The notes under the pieces are model-generated. The model was not told the DNA's origin. It searched no databases and saw only the letters and a program-made list of their open reading frames with translations. Shown here in pieces: positions 10,201-52,224 of a stretch of 64,000 nt of DNA. The number at the start of each line of letters is the position of its first letter. Positions within the stretch are counted from its first letter, which is position 1. Location: the NCBI GenBank assembly GCA_000564995.1, contig JDFH01000020.1, positions 43,820 to 107,819 on the forward strand, in the 5' to 3' direction. The stretch comes from Atopobium sp. ICM42b. Lineage in GTDB: Bacteria > Actinomycetota > Coriobacteriia > Coriobacteriales > Atopobiaceae. A program made the position numbers and the translations under genes.

Positions 10201-10227
10201 GGCGCGTACAGGTTGCAAGTGATTTCT

Positions 10228-10258
10228 ACCCGGCATCCATTTCGTGTGGATGCCGGGT
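10228..10258 (+). terminator. Rho-independent terminator after 3HCDH gene
   Basis: A perfect 12-bp stem, ACCCGGCATCCA / TGGATGCCGGGT, with a 7-nt loop is followed by TTCTTG. It starts 28 bp downstream of the dehydrogenase stop. Confidence 0.85.
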
Positions 10259-10339
10259 TTCTTGTGCGAAAGCGCCGCTGGTGGACGGGGTTTCTCGCCA
10301 GGCTGCGGGAGGGCGGCGCGGGCACGGCGTGCATCTGGC

Positions 10340-10417
10340 GGACGCCTAGCAGGGCGCCTTGAGGGCGCCTAGCGGGCGCCTAGGGGACGCCTTGAGGGCG
10401 CCTAGGGGCGCCTGATT
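10340..10417. repeat. 11-bp tandem array, GGGCGCCTAGC units
   Basis: About six and a half units of the form GG(G/A)CGCCT(A/T)G(A/C/G), period 11 bp, each centred on palindromic GGCGCC. The last unit runs into the left end of repeat module R1. No coding frame. Confidence 0.85.
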
Positions 10418-10528
10418 TCTGCAAAGAATCTGTAAATTTTGCCTAAAAGCATCAAAGAATCTGTGGATTTGCCTGATTTTACAAAAGAATCGGTAGCTCA
10501 AATACAGATTCTTTGCACATTTCAGGCG
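10409..10528 (+). repeat. R1 module, copy 1 (CAAAGAATCTGT word)
   Basis: 120 bp bounded by imperfect inverted ends: CGCCTGA at the left and TCAGGCG at the right, extending to a 25-bp match with about 3 mismatches. Inside, CAAAGAATCTGT occurs twice and AAAGAATCGGT once in direct orientation about 30 bp apart, separated by TTTGCCT spacers; the word then returns inverted as ACAGATTCTTTG before the right end. Related copies are at 16881-17000 and 51768-51887. Confidence 0.85.
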
Positions 10529-10572
10529 GACTTTTTGAACTCAAAGTTGCTTTTCATGAGCGCTCTTCGTGG

Positions 10573-10694
10573 AGCCTGATTTTCTCGCCATGTCTGAACG
10601 TTTTGCCGGAAAAGTGCACCAAGTCTGAGCTATTTGCCGGTTTTTCTCGCTATGTCTGAGTAAATTTACTCAGACATGATGTACTTTTCAGGCG
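10573..10694 (+). repeat. R2 module, copy 1 (TGTCTGAG word)
   Basis: About 120 bp with the same plan as R1: AGCCTGA at the left end, TCAGGCG at the right, three direct copies of a TGTCTGAG-like word about 30 bp apart separated by TTTGCCGG, ending in a perfect 22-bp palindrome made of GTCTGAGTAAA and its complement. The spacer also carries TTTCTCGCCA. Related copies: 16728-16847 and 51935-52057. Confidence 0.85.
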
Positions 10695-10798
10695 GGACGT
10701 GGCGGAACACGGCGGGACGCGGGATGACGCGAGACGCGGCGGGACGCGGCAGCATTGACGCACGCGAATGCCGTATCGGAACTTGCAGAGCTTACTTC

Positions 10799-11521
10799 TT
10801 ACAAACTCAGCTCGTAACGGCCTCCAACAAAGAAGTCTTTGCCAATGTAAACAGGCTTCTTTTCCTTATCCACAAAATAGGACTCGCTAACAATAAGCGG
10901 AGCTCCAACGGAGATATCAAGACGGCTTGACTGCTCTGTTGTTGCTCTTGCTGCATTAATTGTCCAGGAAGAGCTCTTAACTGGCTTTCTTCCAAGGATT
11001 TCAGCAACAGCCTTAAACATTGAGACGTTTTCAAGAGGATGCGTATAAAGATTTGAAGCCCACTCGTAGGGCAAAATAACACGCTCATCAACAATAGGAA
11101 GATCATCTGCATAGCGAATCCTGCGAATATAAAGAATTAAAGCACCTTCAGAAAGACCGAAGAACTTTATCTCATTTGGACGTGCGGGAATTATTTGCCT
11201 GTCTACTACCTCGGCTCTTGGAACAGCTCCGCAAGCGGCACACATCTCGGTAAAACTACGAGACTCTAAAGATTGTTCAAGTCTACGCTTGAGCTGCTTT
11301 GAACCTACAAACGTGCCCCTTCCCTGCTTTTTTGTAAGCAAGCTGTCAGCACAAAGATCTTCAATAGCACGACGGACCGTAATGCGACTTACGTTGTATT
11401 TCTCGCTTAATTCAGTTTCAGAAGGAATTTTATCGTCAACCTGATATACACCAGACTCAATATCACTCTTAATGTCATCATATATCTGTTGATATAAAGG
11501 TTGCACGTTTGATGTACTCAA
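10799..11521 (-). CDS. GntR/HutC-family transcriptional regulator
   Basis: 240 residues. Start is TTG at 11521, with AGGAG five bases upstream. The N-terminal winged helix (about 9-75) contains KIPSETELSEKYNVSRITVRRAIEDL, split here as SETELSEKYNVSRITVRR and AIEDL, the typical GntR DNA-binding signature. The rest (about 95-235) is a UTRA effector-binding domain, which in this subfamily senses phosphorylated sugars or amino acids. It sits just beyond the PTS/SIS operon on the same strand, with its own promoter region. Similar sequences around ACATTATAGACAT lie upstream of this gene, of the EIIAB gene and of the second SIS gene, so it probably represses all three and itself. Confidence 0.9.
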   Translation of the reverse strand: MSTSNVQPLYQQIYDDIKSDIESGVYQVDDKIPSETELSEKYNVSRITVRRAIEDLCADSLLTKKQGRGTFVGSKQLKRRLEQSLESRSFTEMCAACGAVPRAEVVDRQIIPARPNEIKFFGLSEGALILYIRRIRYADDLPIVDERVILPYEWASNLYTHPLENVSMFKAVAEILGRKPVKSSSWTINAARATTEQSSRLDISVGAPLIVSESYFVDKEKKPVYIGKDFFVGGRYELSL

Positions 11522-11534
11522 AACTACTCCTAAG

Positions 11535-11547
11535 ACATTATAGACAT
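11535..11547. promoter_or_regulatory. Candidate GntR operator upstream of gntR gene
   Basis: ACATTATAGACAT lies 14 bp upstream of the regulator start. The minus strand shows ATGTCT twice in direct repeat with 9-bp spacing. It aligns with sites at 15424-15436 and 16597-16609 with consensus AC(A/G)TTATA(G/T)A(C/T)(A/G)T. Confidence 0.5.
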
Positions 11548-11662
11548 CTCAATAATTTAAAACCTTTATAACAATAATACATCTTGTGGCGAAACTCTTG
11601 CACATATATATCTTGTCGAAGGTTTACTTCACAGCAAGAGGACAACTTTCCCGAATATGAAG

Positions 11663-11687
11663 AAAGGACAGGCAGAACCTGTCCTTT
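11663..11687 (-). terminator. Terminator of the PTS/SIS operon
   Basis: Perfect 10-bp stem AAAGGACAGG / CCTGTCCTTT with a 5-nt loop, 26 bp after the stop of the first SIS gene. The minus-strand sequence that follows is pyrimidine-rich (TCTTC), a weak U-tract. Confidence 0.7.
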
Positions 11688-11712
11688 CCTTAGCGTGATT
11701 TACATAATCAGC

Positions 11713-12696
11713 TTAGTACTCAATCTTCCACATATAGCGACGCATGGTCAGAGGATGCTTACGAGCCTCAGCGATCTTCTCGGCGTAAACACGCATGACT
11801 GCGGTATGAATGAACGGGTTGAAATAGCCGAGTACCTTGGAGGAAACAGCTCCTGCAAGACCGTAATCCTTTGAATCAATGACGGTTACCTTGGAGTTGA
11901 AGCGCTGCATAAAGGTAAGCGCACGTGCGTCCATTGGCCTTGTTGCACCCTCAGACATAAAGAGAAGATAAGGCTTTCCATCCTCAGTAAGCTCAAATGG
12001 TCCATGGAAATACTCACCTGTGTTGTAAGCTGCGGAGTCAATCCACTGCATCTCAGAGAACAGGAACATAGAGGTTGAGTAAGCAACCTTTGCAGATGCA
12101 CCAGAGCCCATCAGATAGATAAGCTGATCATCCTTGTAAGCATCTGCGAACTTCTGAGCCTCTGCTCCAGCACTCTGAGCAGACTTCTCTGCTAGCTCAT
12201 AAATGGCGTTGAGACCATCAATGACATCCTGGTAAAGTTCAGTGCCCTCTGTCTGCTGAAGAATCTCTGCTGCAAGTGCCAGGACATAGCCCATCTTCTC
12301 GATCTTTGCTGCATAGTTCTTCTCAAAACCGTGAACAATTACGTAGTCAGCTTCCTTTGTGAGCGCAGAATCTGCAACGTGTGTAACAGCAACTACAGGA
12401 GCACCGGCCTTCTTAGCAGTAGTATTGGCTGCAATAGTCTCTGGAGTACCTCCACCAAGAGAGCAAGTAATAACTAGAGTGTGCTCGCCAAGCCATGCAG
12501 GAGTATCGTAGTTGAACTCGTTAGCGGTAAAGAGCTGAACGTTAAGCTTGTTGGTGTTGTTTGCCAGGAAATACTTAGCTGGATACAGCTCAGACATGGA
12601 TGCGCCACAGCCGACAAAAGCAACATGAGTAATAGTGTGGTTCTCGACAATCTTAGAGATAATACTCTTAGGTTGATTCAGATCGATCTCGTACAT
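11713..12696 (-). CDS. SIS-domain protein, FrlB/GfrF-like deglycase
   Basis: 327 residues carrying two sugar-isomerase (SIS) domains: VAFVGCGAS at the start of the first (about 25-33) and IYLMGSGAS at the second. GEYFHGPFEL and the C-terminal RRYMWKIEY match the fructoselysine-6-phosphate deglycase (FrlB) type rather than GlmS, which would need a glutaminase domain. Such enzymes cleave 6-phosphorylated Amadori products into glucose-6-phosphate and the free amine or amino acid. It is the last gene of the PTS operon, 66 bp behind EIID. An AgaS-like aldose-ketose isomerase is the main alternative. Confidence 0.8.
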   Translation of the reverse strand: MYEIDLNQPKSIISKIVENHTITHVAFVGCGASMSELYPAKYFLANNTNKLNVQLFTANEFNYDTPAWLGEHTLVITCSLGGGTPETIAANTTAKKAGAPVVAVTHVADSALTKEADYVIVHGFEKNYAAKIEKMGYVLALAAEILQQTEGTELYQDVIDGLNAIYELAEKSAQSAGAEAQKFADAYKDDQLIYLMGSGASAKVAYSTSMFLFSEMQWIDSAAYNTGEYFHGPFELTEDGKPYLLFMSEGATRPMDARALTFMQRFNSKVTVIDSKDYGLAGAVSSKVLGYFNPFIHTAVMRVYAEKIAEARKHPLTMRRYMWKIEY

Positions 12697-12761
12697 TTTT
12701 TCTCCTCTTCAAATGGTTTACGCCGTTTATTAATGCCGTTTATCAATGCCGTTTTGATTTA

Positions 12762-13589
12762 TTAAGCGAGAATACCCAGTGCGGAAAGTGCAATTCCACC
12801 AAAGATTGCAATAGCAAGCAACCAACCTGTGTTGACGCCCTTCTTAACCATGTAGAACATTCCTGCAGTTAGAAGCAGTGGAATTGTCTGTGGAAGAATG
12901 CTATCCAAAACGTTCTGAAGGACAAGAGTTCCATCCGCAAAGACCAGAGGTGTTGTCAGTCCAATAAGAGATGCAACCATACTGCCAACAGCCATAAGAC
13001 CAACAATTCCGCAAACGTACATCAGTCGCTCCATGGTGACGCCATCCTGCAGCTTATGCAGGAACTGCTGGCCGCCCTGATAGCCAAGCTTTGCAGCAAA
13101 CCAGGTAACCAGAACAGAAGGAACAATGGAGATAAGCATTGCCAGAATTGGTCCCATGATTGAGCCTTGCTGAGCAAGAGCAACACCAAGTCCAAAGGCA
13201 ATAACACGAATGGTTCCCTGGAAGAACGAGTCACCAATACCAGAAAGAGGACCCATAAGGGAAGTCTTCATTGCATTAATGGAGTCTGGATTAACGCTAT
13301 CAGGATCTTCTGCGTATGCCTCTTCCATTGATGCAGCAAGTCCCAAGACAAAAGCACTTGTCTGAGGTGTGCAGTTGTAGAATGCCATGTGACGCTTATA
13401 AGCCTCTTTTTTGCGCTCTACCTGCTTTGGATCATTTGGATCTGGATAGCATCGATCAATAGTTGGAGCAATGCCATACATAAATCCCATGTTCATTTGA
13501 CGTTCGTAATTCCAAGAATCCTGAATTGCCCAAGAACGCCAGAAGAACTGTGAAAGCTTTTTATTTAAAGAAACCTTATTTTCAGCCAT
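12762..13589 (-). CDS. PTS mannose-family EIID membrane component
   Basis: 275 residues from ATG 13589, chosen over 13637 because AGGAAGGAAG precedes it. Residues beginning SQFFWRSWAIQDSWNYERQM are the standard EIID opening; MGPLSGIGDSFFQGT and the C-terminal membrane segments complete the family pattern. With EIIC it forms the sugar channel of a mannose-type phosphotransferase system in the cytoplasmic membrane. It lies 13 bp after EIIC. Substrate is inferred from the flanking deglycase genes as a glycated amine, not from this protein. Confidence 0.9.
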   Translation of the reverse strand: MAENKVSLNKKLSQFFWRSWAIQDSWNYERQMNMGFMYGIAPTIDRCYPDPNDPKQVERKKEAYKRHMAFYNCTPQTSAFVLGLAASMEEAYAEDPDSVNPDSINAMKTSLMGPLSGIGDSFFQGTIRVIAFGLGVALAQQGSIMGPILAMLISIVPSVLVTWFAAKLGYQGGQQFLHKLQDGVTMERLMYVCGIVGLMAVGSMVASLIGLTTPLVFADGTLVLQNVLDSILPQTIPLLLTAGMFYMVKKGVNTGWLLAIAIFGGIALSALGILA

Positions 13590-13602
13590 GATAACTTCCT
13601 TC

Positions 13603-14412
13603 CTACTCGTCATCCTCGAGCGGATCATGCGTGGCACTTACATGAGCTGACTGCAAAGTTCCAGCTCCTGCTCCACCACGACCAAATTTAATGCCGGAAA
13701 GAATAACTGCGAGCACCACTGCAAAGAGCGAAACTGCTGTTACAGAGAGGTGCAAATATGCAGAAAGCAAGAAACCAAGGAACAAGAAGCCCTCCATGCC
13801 CTTAGAGAGCATCATTGAAATCAGCAGTGCCAAACCAAATGCAGTCAAAATCTGAGCAGAAACATTTAAACCAGTGCTCAGCCATGCAGGAATTAGCTCA
13901 ACAACGGCCTTAACTGCATCTGTACCAAGGAAAACAGCAGCGAAGATAGGAATAAAATACATAAGAGAGTACAAGGTAGTGCCAACCACAATGTGCATAT
14001 TGGTTGCTTTCTTGAATTTACCCTCTTCAATTGCCTGGTCAGATACGTGAGTAAGTGCAGCAATAATCGAACGGAAAACAATACCAAAAAGCTGTCCGAG
14101 TACTGCAATTGGAATTGCAATAGTCATTGCAGTCTCAACACCTGCTCCTGTAAGGCAAGCAAATGCAGATGCAACAATACTGCCAAGAACCATATCAGGT
14201 GGTACGGCTGCGCCTACTGATACCAGGCCCATGCTTACGAGCTCGGTTGCAGCTCCAACAGCAAGACCTGTAGGAATATCTCCCAGAACAAGACCAACGA
14301 GTGTTGCGCCAATAAGTGGTTGCTCAAAGTTGAGTCGTCCGAGCAAACGAGAGTCAAGCATGCAGAAAATGCCAACGAGACCGACAAGAAGCGCACTAAC
14401 AAATGTACTCAT
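13603..14412 (-). CDS. PTS mannose-family EIIC membrane component
   Basis: 269 residues, highly hydrophobic with about seven membrane segments. The N-terminus (LLVGLVGIFCMLDSRLLG) and GLVLGDIPTGLAVGA...LVSMGLVSVGAAVPPD region are characteristic of EIIC of the mannose/sorbose family. The C-terminus ends in a polar, acidic tail (HDPLEDDE). Operon partner of EIID and EIIAB; 15 bp after EIIAB. It supplies most of the translocation pathway. Confidence 0.9.
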   Translation of the reverse strand: MSTFVSALLVGLVGIFCMLDSRLLGRLNFEQPLIGATLVGLVLGDIPTGLAVGAATELVSMGLVSVGAAVPPDMVLGSIVASAFACLTGAGVETAMTIAIPIAVLGQLFGIVFRSIIAALTHVSDQAIEEGKFKKATNMHIVVGTTLYSLMYFIPIFAAVFLGTDAVKAVVELIPAWLSTGLNVSAQILTAFGLALLISMMLSKGMEGFLFLGFLLSAYLHLSVTAVSLFAVVLAVILSGIKFGRGGAGAGTLQSAHVSATHDPLEDDE

Positions 14413-14427
14413 TTCTTCTCCCCTCTT

Positions 14428-15351
14428 TTATAGTGAATTTAAATTGACACGCTGATGGGTAGGTGTCTGCTGAACGTATACTTTGGTTCCAAGATCCAAA
14501 AGCTCCTGAGTATCTTTCTTACCTTCTTCGGTAAGGAATACGGAACTTCCAGATCCACCAATTTGCTCCGCACCATCTACATTGGCGGTTGCACCATAGT
14601 TGACCTCATCAAATTGATGCTGCTTTGAGAACTCCAAGAGCTCTTTTGTGTTGCCAAATACAAACATTACTGAATCACCAAGCGTGTCCAGCTTTGCCAA
14701 CTTTGAAAGAGCTTTTTCAACAGTGAAGATATTGAGATAAACGCCGGTGGGTTTAGCCAGCTTAAGAGCATTCTTTTTAATATCATTTGTTGCTGCATCG
14801 TTATCCACAATGATGATGCGGTTTGCGCCTACAGTATTAATCCAAGAGAATACAACCTGTCCATGAAGAAGCCTGTAATCCAGACGAGCGAGAACAACTT
14901 TGCTCTTTCCGCCCTTTCCTTGGACCGGCTGCTGCTGAGCAGCTGCAATGACAGCTTCCTCGAGCTCAGGGTGGCCACAGTCAACAATACCCTTACGGCT
15001 TTCTAGAATTAGCTGGTGAACCTGCTCTTGCGTAAGATCTTCTCCCTCAAGTGCAAGAGACAAAATAAGAGGCATGTTCATTCCAGCAATAACAACAATG
15101 TTTTCCTGCTGCTGCAACAATTCAACAGCTGAATTGTTGACACTGCTGCCTAACATGTCGGTAAGAACATAGACATGGTCATTCTTATCAAAAGTCTTAA
15201 TAAGCTCGACAATTTTGCCGGAAATTGATTCCTTATCCTCCCTTTGCAATGTAAGTGCGTGCACATTAGGAATTTCTCCCACAATCATGTGGACAGTGTC
15301 TAAAGCACCAACTGATAGATTTCCATGCGACGCAAGGATAACTTGATTCAT
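14428..15351 (-). CDS. PTS mannose-family EIIAB fusion
   Basis: 307 residues from ATG 15351 (AAGGAG upstream; an in-frame ATG at 15399 has no ribosome site). EIIA is about 1-125, with phosphorylated His9 in ILASHGNLS; EIIB is about 145-305, with His163 in RLLHGQV. A Gln/Gly/Lys-rich linker (QQQPVQGKGGKS) joins them. Phosphate passes HPr to His9 to His163 to sugar. Upstream of it is a 198-bp gap with a candidate GntR operator and a GC-rich hairpin, so it may have its own promoter. Confidence 0.92.
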   Translation of the reverse strand: MNQVILASHGNLSVGALDTVHMIVGEIPNVHALTLQREDKESISGKIVELIKTFDKNDHVYVLTDMLGSSVNNSAVELLQQQENIVVIAGMNMPLILSLALEGEDLTQEQVHQLILESRKGIVDCGHPELEEAVIAAAQQQPVQGKGGKSKVVLARLDYRLLHGQVVFSWINTVGANRIIIVDNDAATNDIKKNALKLAKPTGVYLNIFTVEKALSKLAKLDTLGDSVMFVFGNTKELLEFSKQHQFDEVNYGATANVDGAEQIGGSGSSVFLTEEGKKDTQELLDLGTKVYVQQTPTHQRVNLNSL

Positions 15352-15423
15352 AGACACTCCTTTCTTCCAGAGCAATTGTGTCAAACAGTAAAATTGCAAA
15401 ACTGAGTATACAATACATATAAG

Positions 15424-15436
15424 ACATTATATACGT
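15424..15436. promoter_or_regulatory. Candidate GntR operator upstream of EIIAB
   Basis: ACATTATATACGT sits within a larger inverted repeat, ATATAAGAC and GTCTTATAT separated by 9 bp, 73 bp upstream of the EIIAB start. Same core as the sites near 11535 and 16597. Confidence 0.5.
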
Positions 15437-15549
15437 CTTATATAAATTCGTGTGAACGGTACTTTTTGAACGGTAAACGGTACTCAGCGCAGGCTGCGCG
15501 TAGGTCTGAAAGTGCAGACCTGCACACGCGCAAATCCGCGTGCAACCGC

Positions 15550-16530
15550 CTAGTAAGGAACCTTCCACATATACGTGCGAGTCATATAGTCTTTGCCAGT
15601 TGCTTTTGAGAGTTCTCTCATAAAGACGTTGTTTAATATTGGCGAGAAAAGAACATGATTGAAGTACTCTGCTACATCTTCAGATAGCTGAGTAATGCCT
15701 AAATCTACAGCATCTAGCACAAAGGTTTTCTCGGCAGCATACGTTGAAAGAAAATTAACTGCGCGCATATCAGCTGGCCTACAACGTCCATAAGAAACGA
15801 GCTGGAAAATAGGATCTTCGTTTACAAGCACTTCAAAAGGACCATGGAAGAACTCACATGAATTAATTGTTGGCGAGCTTTTTTGAAGCATCTCTTCAAT
15901 ATTGCAGATGGAAAATATATAGGCCGATCCATAGGCAGGTCCGGAGCCCATAACATAAATAGTTGGAGCATCTTTCACTGATTGAGCCCAAGTCTGTGCA
16001 ATTGGAGTTGTGCGAACAACTGCCTCTCTATAAAGAGAATCGACCTGGTCAAAAGCCATTTCCATCTCATTCATACGAGCATAGCCTTCAGTTTGATTTA
16101 CTAAGTTGGCAGCAATCAAGAGGCCGACGCTTGAATTTACTCTCTCAGTTTTACTTTCATCGAGAGCGATAGACTCGTATTTGATTTTCTGATCACATAC
16201 CTCGGTTAACTGCGATTCCTCAACATAAATCGCAATTACATAAGCACCGTGGTCTTTTGCAATACGCGCAGCTTCACAAGTTTCTTTGGTTCCTCGCATC
16301 GAGCAAACGATACAAATTGTTGACTCTCCAAGCGTGGCTGGTGGAGCAAATACAAACTCGTTGCTGGTATGCATGCGAGAAGAAAGAACTGTTGCTTCGT
16401 GAGTCATAAAGTAGTCCGCTGGATAAAATCCACCATAAGAACCACCAGCGGCAATCCATTCAACGTGCTTAAAATCATGCTCTGAAATCGCCTTAGCGAC
16501 TGCTTGCTTTACCTCGTCTTGAATCTTCAT
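15550..16530 (-). CDS. Second SIS-domain FrlB-like deglycase
   Basis: 326 residues from ATG 16530 (GGGAG upstream; ATG 16584 has no site). Two SIS domains begin at WIAAGGSYGG and IYVMGSGPAYGS; CEFFHGPFEV and the terminal RTYMWKVPY parallel the other SIS protein of this locus but the two are clearly diverged, so they probably act on different 6-phosphates. A pair of deglycases next to a mannose-type PTS is the arrangement of the Salmonella gfr operon (GfrE for glucoselysine, GfrF for fructoselysine). First gene of the locus, with a candidate GntR operator 67 bp upstream. Confidence 0.8.
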   Translation of the reverse strand: MKIQDEVKQAVAKAISEHDFKHVEWIAAGGSYGGFYPADYFMTHEATVLSSRMHTSNEFVFAPPATLGESTICIVCSMRGTKETCEAARIAKDHGAYVIAIYVEESQLTEVCDQKIKYESIALDESKTERVNSSVGLLIAANLVNQTEGYARMNEMEMAFDQVDSLYREAVVRTTPIAQTWAQSVKDAPTIYVMGSGPAYGSAYIFSICNIEEMLQKSSPTINSCEFFHGPFEVLVNEDPIFQLVSYGRCRPADMRAVNFLSTYAAEKTFVLDAVDLGITQLSEDVAEYFNHVLFSPILNNVFMRELSKATGKDYMTRTYMWKVPY

Positions 16531-16596
16531 GTAACACTCCCTTTGCCAAAATCGAGCTTGATTGCCTTTTCCAAGCGCGTGCATAATTAGTACGTA

Positions 16597-16609
16597 ACGT
16601 TATAGATGT
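16597..16609. promoter_or_regulatory. Candidate GntR operator upstream of second SIS gene
   Basis: ACGTTATAGATGT, matching the consensus of the sites at 11535-11547 and 15424-15436. Located 67 bp upstream of the first gene of the operon. Confidence 0.45.
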
Positions 16610-16727
16610 TTATATTCTTTTAAGCAAGAAAATTCAAGAAGATGATTTTGGTTAGTCGGCAAATGGCTTAATGGTGCTTTTCAAAAAAACAGCTAGACAG
16701 TAATAAAGATAGGGAATAGGAAATTCG

Positions 16728-16847
16728 CCTGGAAAGTGCGCTATGTCTGAGCTATTTGCCGGTTTTTCTCGCTAAGTCTGAGCGATTTGCCTGTTTTTCT
16801 CGCCATGTCTGAGTACTTCTACTCAGACTAAGTGAGCATTTCAGGCT
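16728..16847 (+). repeat. R2 module, copy 2
   Basis: Same scaffold as 10573-10694: word TGTCTGAGC then TTTGCCGG, AAGTCTGAGC then TTTGCCTG, and a final hairpin GTCTGAGTA / TACTCAGAC with a CTTC loop. Right end TCAGGC; the left end is altered to GCCTGG. Here R2 precedes R1, the reverse of the other two loci. Confidence 0.85.
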
Positions 16848-16880
16848 CATGAATCCGGCATAATTGCTTTAACTTTCTCG

Positions 16881-17000
16881 CGCCTGATTTCTGCAAAGAA
16901 TCTGTAAATTTTGCCTAAATACATCAAAGAATCTGTGGATTTGCCTGATTTTGTTAAAGAATCGGTGGCTTAAATACAGATTCTTTGCACATTTCAGGCG
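16881..17000 (+). repeat. R1 module, copy 2
   Basis: Exactly 120 bp from CGCCTGA to TCAGGCG and nearly identical to copy 1, with two CAAAGAATCTGT words, one AAAGAATCGGT and the inverted ACAGATTCTTTG. It lies 85 bp upstream of the following membrane-protein gene. Confidence 0.85.
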
Positions 17001-17085: not shown

Positions 17086-17907
17086 ATGGTTGAGTCTTTA
17101 AAACTATTCGTTCGGACCTACGTGTATTGGGTAGGGCTCATCCTCGGCTTTGCGATAGTGCCCGGTTCCCTGCTCTTCATCGGTGGAGTCGCCCCGGTGA
17201 GCACCCCATTGTGGCTTGCCCCTCTAGCAGGACTGCTATTTTTTATCATTGATAGGCCATCAACATGGGAGACGCCGCTCTGTCGAGCATTACTGATCCG
17301 CGTATTGGGTACAGGGGTTGCGGCCATCGCGTTAGTCGCTTTTGATGCAGTTGCTTCCACCCAGTATGGATCTCAACATTGGAGTGAGACGCTCCTATCT
17401 CTCGGTCTCGGCTGGATTGCCTTCACGGTCATGGCAGGACGGATGCTCATGAGGAGCTCAGCCCGATTTGCCACGCCTACTTTCACGAACAGGGATGCGA
17501 TCCGTACGTACACGACATGGATTGGAATCTGCTTCGGGATTTTCTATATCCCCGCCACGGGGCTCGCTGCAGCTGGCACTCTTTTGATGGTACTTCCACT
17601 TTACGGAACGTTTCTCACCGGCCTGGTTCTTTTGATAGTTGACCCGCCACAACGATGGCCGCAACCGCGAGTGAAGGCACTGTGGATACGACTCTTGTCA
17701 AGCGGGGCAGCAGCATTACTACTTGCTGTCACGAACTCGTTCTATCGCAGTACTGACACACACGAGATTTTCGTTGGGGACTGGCTGGGAAACCTGCTCT
17801 TCTGCGTAGGCGCTTGGGCACTTTATGCCGCAGTGGCTGGGGCTGCGTATCTTATGCGTGGCCCCAGCCACGAAGCAGATGACAACTCAGTAGATGAATT
17901 CAGCTAG
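17086..17907 (+). CDS. Membrane protein with internal duplication, unknown function
   Basis: 273 residues, about eight hydrophobic segments, start ATG 17086 after a G-run ribosome site. The N-terminal half (about 8-125) and C-terminal half (about 140-262) are copies: each opens with (R)TY..W.G...G....P, continues with a Gly-rich membrane segment, then L(A/Y)xx(L)xGLxxxIxDxPxxW, then AL(L/W)IR(V/L)L..G.AA. This is an ancient tandem duplication. The GC content and codon use look richer than the flanking PTS genes. Family not recognised; a small-molecule transporter or a permease-associated protein is possible. It is monocistronic. Confidence 0.7.
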   Translation: MVESLKLFVRTYVYWVGLILGFAIVPGSLLFIGGVAPVSTPLWLAPLAGLLFFIIDRPSTWETPLCRALLIRVLGTGVAAIALVAFDAVASTQYGSQHWSETLLSLGLGWIAFTVMAGRMLMRSSARFATPTFTNRDAIRTYTTWIGICFGIFYIPATGLAAAGTLLMVLPLYGTFLTGLVLLIVDPPQRWPQPRVKALWIRLLSSGAAALLLAVTNSFYRSTDTHEIFVGDWLGNLLFCVGAWALYAAVAGAAYLMRGPSHEADDNSVDEFS

Positions 17908-51541: not shown

Positions 51542-51767
51542 ACGTTTCTGAAGCCTCTCCTGGTTGCAGGTACGTACTGGGTGCGCGGGCGCGTGTGAGC
51601 GGCGCGGGTGGCGCGGCAGCACAACAACACAACAACACCGTAGCACCCGATTTATTGCACATACTGAGTATTATTACACACTCTGTGCAATAACTGCAAC
51701 CACGAGAAGAGCGATTTTCTCGCCAAGCCTGCTCTGTCTGCTGAGTTTCTATTTTGGCCTGCAAGCT

Positions 51768-51887
51768 TGCCTGATGTCTTCAAAGATTCTGTAGCTTTTG
51801 CCTGAAAACATAAAAGAATCTGTGGATTTGCCTGATTTCATCAAAGAATCGGTGTCTCAAACACCGATTCTTTACACTTTTTAGGCG
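51768..51887 (+). repeat. R1 module, copy 3
   Basis: 120 bp from TGCCTGA to TTAGGCG. Words: CAAAGATTCTGT, AAAAGAATCTGT, CAAAGAATCGGTG, with a final perfect inverted arm pair AAAGAATCGGTGT / ACACCGATTCTTT. The third word and its inverted partner both carry the CGGTG variant, so they changed together. Confidence 0.85.
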
Positions 51888-51934: not shown

Positions 51935-52057
51935 AGCCTGATGTTATCGTCATGTCTGAACAATTTGCCGGAAAAGTGCACCATATCTGAGCTATTTGCC
52001 GGTTTTTCTCGCCATGTCTGAGTAAATTTACTCAGACTTGATGCACTTTTCAGGCTC
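51935..52057 (+). repeat. R2 module, copy 3
   Basis: AGCCTGA at left, TCAGGC at right, words ATGTCTGAAC, ATATCTGAGC and ATGTCTGAGT separated by TTTGCCGG, ending in the same perfect 22-bp palindrome as copy 1. It contains one TTCTCGCCA. Confidence 0.85.
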
Positions 52058-52156
52058 ACGTAGCGTTTCTGGCGAGAAACCCCGCGCACTCCCCGCCGGC
52101 GCTTCGCGCGCTTGACCTGCAAGTTTGCCTGCACACGACGCTGTTACCACACAAAA

Positions 52157-52188
52157 AAACCGGCGCTCACCTGCGTGAACACCGGTTT
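52157..52188 (-). terminator. Terminator of the nucleoside operon
   Basis: Stem AAACCGG / CCGGTTT with inner TTCAC / GTGAG pairs; on the minus strand it continues as a run of T (complement of the A-run at 52153-52159). It lies about 40 bp after the pdp stop. Confidence 0.85.
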
Positions 52189-52224
52189 GACCTGCATGTT
52201 ATGTGGAGCTTGGACCCCGTACGC

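Follow-up and report, generated by a model that had tools for sequence, protein, structure and literature searches.

The 64,000-nucleotide window analysed here (Atopobium sp. ICM42b, contig JDFH01000020.1, positions 43,820 to 107,819 of the forward strand) carries two families of short modules, R1 and R2, each built of phased units with a fixed box and a family-specific word. We read these modules as dispersed multi-site DNA recognition arrays whose most likely partner is an EDxHD/Vsr-like protein, word and protein changing together, and hold this reading with about even confidence. It draws on the geometry of the arrays, the conservation of box and word, array positions shared by two species, a layout of array, gene and array in two genera, and the nuclease-like residues and predicted fold of the protein encoded there.

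R1 (118 bp) and R2 (120 bp) were each present in three copies in the window, all on the forward strand and paired at 10.4, 16.8 and 51.8 kb; a preliminary description of this DNA had reported such pairs on a common scaffold, one module of each family per locus, and the pairs are real. Both modules comprise three direct units and one inverted unit of ~24-25 nt each, phased at 31/30 bp in R1 and 31/31 bp in R2. At the first locus, R1 (10410-10527, +) has direct units u1 (10410-10433), u2 (10441-10464) and u3 (10471-10494), an inverted unit u4 (10504-10527) and the word CAAAGAATCTGT; R2 (10574-10693, +) has direct units at 10574-10598, 10605-10629 and 10636-10660, an inverted unit at 10669-10693 and the word (C)ATGTCTGAG. 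The second locus holds R2', a variant of R2 with an A-rich spacer in its first unit (16727-16846, +), and an R1 module that starts 35 bp past it (16882-16999, +). The third holds R1 (51769-51886, +) and R2 (51936-52055, +).

Within each unit the order is a GCC(T/G) box, a spacer, the word and a short linker with a TTT end. Thirteen R1 and 12 R2 modules were aligned almost without gaps (three single-base gap columns); GCC boxes were invariant, TTT nearly invariant, and each direct unit carried a TCTG core of which T, C and G were invariant or nearly so, the rest of the word being family-specific. Because the boxes, TTT and most of the TCTG core are common to both, R1 and R2 are related families whose words, earlier presented simply as different, are partly shared. 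The earlier plan needs correcting to the units and phasing given above, and its TTTGCC(T/G)G junction did not hold throughout: in the 10.4-kb and 16.9-kb copies of R1 the first junction is TTTGCCTA. Broadly the word is kept at every position, as had been claimed, but with small changes (a u3 word of AAAGAATCGGT or similar in 17 of 26 R1 copies; variation at an A/T position in R2 words). Its coherence belongs to the family and not to the module: the word is the same throughout a module and differs between three families in two genera (R3 is described below), but the co-variation within modules put forward as a check failed to appear: units standing in one module do not share the variants that occur inside a family (R1, p 0.86; R2, p 0.22). 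Terminal inverted repeats of the kind found in miniature inverted-repeat transposable elements (MITEs) are present (GCCTGA...TCAGGC plus the word at either end), and the u3/u4 dyad of R1 and R2 is an inverted doublet capable of forming a hairpin. Read directly, the units of R1, R2 and R3 are not themselves palindromes; pairing runs between units.

The genome nearest to the window was that of Atopobium sp. BS2 (G001), an oral Atopobium of the kind we take to be Lancefieldella, a genus placed in Atopobiaceae by the database. That the scaffold pattern is not chance was shown there by 27 matches, 26 of them R1 or R2 by word (11 and 15); the control with the pattern reversed gave 0. BLAST matches to R1 and R2 numbered 20 and 29 in G001 (palindrome arms recounted), 10 and 2 in G003, and 1 and 0 in G004, and none were obtained in G002 or G005. 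In G001, 15 of the 20 R1 matches had an R2 match no more than 200 bp away, before or after them, on the same contig and strand, and seven of eight pairs with R2 first were 35-36 bp apart. The number of units is not constant: where G003 has a full module, G004 has a single 57-bp half module. A looser pattern matched 23 of 60 genomes of relatives, with R1/R2 modules in G001 and G003 only. A mixed R1 and R2 covariance model, run over 140 Atopobiaceae, left 25 matches in G001, 12 in G003, one in G004 (the half module) and one in G130 after stricter filters; the weak G130 match (E 3.6e-4) led to the discovery of R3. Order-wide, a pattern matched 24 of 395 genomes, seven through R1, R2 or R3 arrays (G001, G003, G122, G125, G126, G130 and G139), 11 through another palindrome and six through unrelated strings. 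PLSDB and INPHARED gave no match to the R1-R2 DNA query, and IMG/VR nothing confirmed for one conserved R1 string and one R2 string. Arrays were confined, among the genomes searched, to part of one family; sister clades use different words, and one genome carries two. Searches of open-licence literature turned up no description of the repeats, and in a term search of PMC12306157 none of the stems Atopob, Coriobact, Lancefield and Olsenella opened a word of the main text.

Positions and substitutions were compared between G001 and G003, a second species. Each of the ten R1 modules of G003 has an R1 counterpart at the equivalent G001 place, eight matched by both flanks (one split over two contigs) and two by one flank (G001 contig ends). 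The 51.8-kb place of the window holds R1 in both (C14 in G001; 168964 in G003); R2 was present at the equivalent G001 place and was not found at the G003 place. R1 identity was 86.4%, and that of the immediate flanks 61.3% and 58.7%, near saturation against 57.5% for unrelated flanks. Over nine unsplit pairs, a G003 R1 was no closer to its G001 orthologue than to the other copies in G001 (mean difference, -0.06 points). Deviations of G003 from the G001 consensus affected 20 of 440 word positions (4.5%) and 1 of 119 GCC positions (0.8%), and 76 of 398 spacer (19.1%), 19 of 130 linker and 25 of 90 loop positions. As box and word are conserved while spacers drift and flanks are saturated, the R1 sites are probably under selection. 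Their pattern looks like that of binding sites held at an optimum; gene conversion could contribute to their likeness. As with REPINs and their RAYTs (REP-associated tyrosine transposases), present-day inheritance of the arrays seems to be mainly vertical.

R3, the third word family (word ATATGCGTG), belongs to another Atopobiaceae genus (g4). BLAST with G130 array DNA gave 47 matches in G130, 42 in G125, 33 in G126 and few in G120, G122, G131 and G139; of the ten genomes with matches among 31 in the genus, G110, G127 and G128 matched through a flanking gene only, leaving seven array carriers. A unit-matrix scan of the fetched loci yielded 71 distinct arrays, orthologues in different genomes being counted separately (28 of 3+1, 16 of 2+2, 8 of 4+1, 7 of 3+2 and 12 others), all with a hairpin-capable tail-to-tail pair. 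The scan found 225 units in 40 loci and 0 in one base-shuffled copy. Across 313 R3 units, a GTGCC box and a TGCG core were nearly fixed and the spacer was variable. Same-strand spacing was 30 or 31 bp in 131 of 169 cases, and the dyad spanned 57 bp at 72 of 72 tail-to-tail junctions despite varying unit number. That R1 and R3 have an equal 57-bp dyad depends on the chosen unit start (GCC or GTGCC); measured GCC to GCC, the dyad is 57 bp in R1, 58 in R2 and 53 in R3. Three traits are common to R3 and R1/R2: the spacer after GCC(T/G) most often starts with GATTT, the units are phased alike, and in the tail-to-tail dyad the words stand 7-9 bp apart. Many arrays of both genera are flanked by an inverted pair of (C)TTCTCG motifs; around the 51.8-kb pair these are TTTTCTCGCC upstream (51715-51724, +) and, inverted relative to it, a downstream motif read on the forward strand as TGGCGAGAAA (52070-52079, -). 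Because nearby R2 spacers inflate the flank-motif counts for the Lancefieldella modules taken together, the evidence for this motif was drawn from G003 and R3. Conservation of A/T spacer position types across genera was considered and dropped, the A-rich unit being u2 in R1/R2 and mostly u3 in R3 (18 of 28). The gap that carries an R3 array in G130 and G126 is filled by CAATTGGGGACAGTCCCC-like repeats at L284, L262 and L263 (G125, G110 and G127).

In three genomes of two genera, the gene for a homologous protein is located between two arrays (R2-type once, R3 twice). The protein has the E-D-H-D residues and, by prediction, the Vsr-like fold of EDxHD/Vsr-like nucleases; its profile match to 3r3p was weak (E 0.023), and its N-terminal part was the most variable. 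With conservation falling on word and GCC box and this candidate recognition protein between arrays, the earlier suggestion of a protein-recognition array gains partial support. Single members gave no usable match in Pfam, PADLOC or NCBIfam. No match was obtained in PLSDB with the G001 protein or in INPHARED with the G130 protein, and nothing was confirmed in IMG/VR with P0013. The R2' variant recurs in G001 at C28:59320 and C22:5602, the latter copy adjoining the nuclease-like gene. PF01797 (Y1_Tnp) was matched in two of five genomes, G001 (131-aa open frame, contig C13) and G005, and not in G003, the carrier of ten R1 modules. The three nuclease-like genes have arrays at both ends and might be autonomous, transposing partners of a MITE-like kind. 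Some group A and group B frames (P0001, P0012, P0013) have a similar upstream extension of ~70 residues, though the proteins are only ~50% identical, as if genes of both groups had come to stand behind a common leader.

On the reading as recognition arrays, each unit of ~24-25 bp would combine a fixed box (GCC and what follows) with a family-specific word. Since units recur every 30-31 bp, about three helical turns, bound monomers would be aligned on one face of the helix, and the last direct and the inverted unit would form a fixed dyad on which two monomers face each other. The variable N-terminal part of the EDxHD/Vsr-like protein would read the word, and its C-terminal nuclease domain would nick or cut at the array, acting at the dyad. 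Repair or copying would spread, homogenise and maintain the arrays and sometimes recombine them together with the genes between. A shift in protein specificity would be followed by all units of a module; a similar scaffold with one word per family would result, because every unit must fit the same protein. One point weighs on the other side: as arrays also enclose other genes, the nuclease gene could be mere cargo. More tentatively, as something possible rather than probable, we propose a second, non-homologous REPIN/RAYT-like way of life, in which an EDxHD family of Atopobiaceae maintains phased arrays, word and N-terminus switch together, and orthogonal R1 and R2 populations share a genome with groups B and A as their respective partners. 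If so, long-lived REPIN-like repeat populations have also arisen around an unrelated protein, and nature offers a series of DNA words, each paired with its protein variant, on a similar scaffold. The long-term keeping of such repeats and nucleases by bacteria would become testable, and the intergenic hot spots of gain and loss in Lancefieldella (IS30-like elements, at least one operon) would be accounted for.

The arrays might instead serve the host, a host protein binding them for chromosome organisation, for supercoiling between convergent genes or for transcription insulation, as proposed for some repetitive extragenic palindromic (REP) and bacterial interspersed mosaic element (BIME) sequences, with the nuclease gene as incidental cargo. 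Box and word kept beside saturated flanks, and the ten R1 positions common to G003 and G001, would be expected of such sites. So would the orientation of genes beside R3 arrays with two scored neighbours (25 convergent, 27 codirectional and 4 divergent, vs 8, 30 and 13 in other gaps of at least 150 bp), a count from crude open reading frame (ORF) calls that omitted 15 of the 71 arrays because they lay at locus edges and in which 38 overlapped a predicted ORF. We consider host service unlikely: in the genomes searched the arrays are limited to part of one family, their words differ between sister clades and even within one genome, and one protein family is found between arrays in two genera.

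A reading as MITE-like non-autonomous repeats, two subfamilies from two founders whose word coherence reflects common descent, was judged a little less credible still. Terminal inverted repeats, a length of about 120 bp, a mostly intergenic position and 20 to 47 BLAST matches per query in rich genomes all agree with it, as does coherence between families and not within them. Dead repeats should, however, lose their words at the spacer rate, and words deviated at 4.5% vs 19.1% for spacers; orthologous copies were no closer than others, as expected of sites at an optimum, and the 57-bp dyad was fixed at every R3 junction while unit number varied.

Recombination sites, the arrays acting as portable ends that admit gene cassettes by homologous or site-specific recombination, were regarded as improbable. 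This explanation takes its support from a phosphotransferase system (PTS) operon bracketed R1-R2...R2-R1 in the window. The segment between the two R1 copies (10528-16881) carries, in order, R2, a GntR regulator (10799-11521, -), a SIS gene (11713-12696, -), PTS IID/IIC/IIAB (12762-15399, -), a second SIS gene (15550-16584, -) and R2'. In G001 a single R1 connects the equivalents of window positions 10307 and 17000, and in G003 a single R1 is located between the same outer genes, where the ORF at 17086-17907 is also unmatched. G002 has a 64-71% relative of the operon DNA, which went unmatched in G001, G003, G004 and G005. With a single R1 and no operon DNA in G001 and G003, the operon is, on this comparison, one gained or lost at an array. 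At two window loci, G002, G004 and G005 matched in the flanks alone, at 70-74%, and no clean empty site was seen. In G130, five array pairs were <3 kb apart vs 1.09 expected (P 0.005; 30 hand-listed array places), a count begun only when such pairs had already caught attention. Inside the five are three toxin-antitoxin-like gene pairs, the nuclease gene and a LuxR-PASTA gene. Against recombination sites, most arrays are solitary, and homologous recombination between repeats needs no dedicated function to give this pattern. The toxin-antitoxin-like pairs inside R3 array pairs (L317, L340, L327 and L324; G130 and G126) are Fic/VbhA, PIN with a FitA-like ribbon-helix-helix (RHH) protein, and RHH with an 88-aa frame, the G126 Fic frame being assigned by sequence likeness only. 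One R1 copy of G001 is cut at the TTTGCC junction and followed by an IS30-like transposase (L202:1500-2623; HTH_38, weak rve; two open frames), and four further R1 copies there (L199, L198, L001 and L021) are cut at or near contig ends by apparent ends of the same kind of element.

An RNA-level element (transcribed hairpins as terminator, processing site or RNA-protein array, the RNA alternative of the preliminary description) is very improbable, because, strong as the palindrome is and although pair changes between families preserve pairing in the 25-sequence alignment, pairing within families was not above that of shuffles (902 of 2000 as high in R1, 234 of 2000 in R2), of 26 R1 copies 16 have a G-A mismatch with u4 through the u3 T-to-G change, which is compensated in a single copy, and Rfam at gathering thresholds matched two tRNAs only in the window and nothing at the modules.

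Several other repeats were recorded. Degenerate 10-bp tandem repeats (GGGCGCCTAG and similar) at 10320-10409 reach the R1 start and are unmatched at this place in G001. A terminator-like hairpin followed by GGGGTTTCTCGCCAGG (10204-10301) has copies of 82-93% identity near modules at several G001 and G003 loci, and a ~145-bp intergenic stretch (52068-52214) has an 84% copy beside an R1-R2 pair at G001 locus L026/L027. The palindrome GCCTGATTTTCTCC...GGCCTTATTTTCGCC... was met once per genome by the order-wide pattern in 11 genomes of three families; where visible (9 of 11 loci viewed; L286, L287, L292, L297, L298, L299, L303, L306), it follows the end of a guaA-like gene, precedes an ATPase gene, or does both, and it looks like a separate integrating element. 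Raw matches of the scaffold pattern in named genomes came, among the matches listed, from many taxa.

The arrays were compared with known systems. The MITEs Correia/NEMIS, RUP and BOX are intergenic, about 100-150 bp long and bounded by terminal inverted repeats. The arrays resemble them in all three respects and differ in the internal phased repetition of the terminal unit and in a swappable word; no constant-length direct repeat indicating target-site duplication was seen in the 14-bp flanks of 26 R1 and 20 R2 modules, which were read by eye and are saturated. I-Bth0305I, which we take to be of the EDxHD type, and Vsr/DUF559 proteins are predicted to share their C-terminal fold and E-D-H-D residues with the nuclease-like protein; by comparison with them, that protein has an extra N-terminal part of ~190 residues, its gene was not seen in an intron, and dozens of arrays per genome take the place of a single target site. 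EDxHD is described as a homing family in PMC6083498. The N-terminal part gave a weak fold match to AbiEi, the subject of PMC7319586; the arrays differ from AbiEi operators in being dozens of dispersed sites, not one operator, and no toxin partner was noticed beside the gene, no dedicated search having been made. For REPIN/RAYT systems, passages of PMC3116915 and PMC8049555 describe families matched to protein variants, a gene beside the repeats and vertical persistence. The arrays share with them many short inverted-repeat elements between genes, an associated gene adjoining the repeats and, as it seems, families matched to protein variants and mainly vertical inheritance; they differ in that their units recur at 30-31 bp and form a fixed dyad, and in that the protein is EDxHD nuclease-like and not a Y1 transposase. 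The arrays work like REPIN/RAYT but are not a member of it, because each REP unit is an imperfect palindrome and the array units are not, and because G003 has no Y1 transposase match. The contrast with REP and MITE elements drawn in the preliminary description was thus half right: the protein differs, but the behaviour is much like that of a REPIN/RAYT population.
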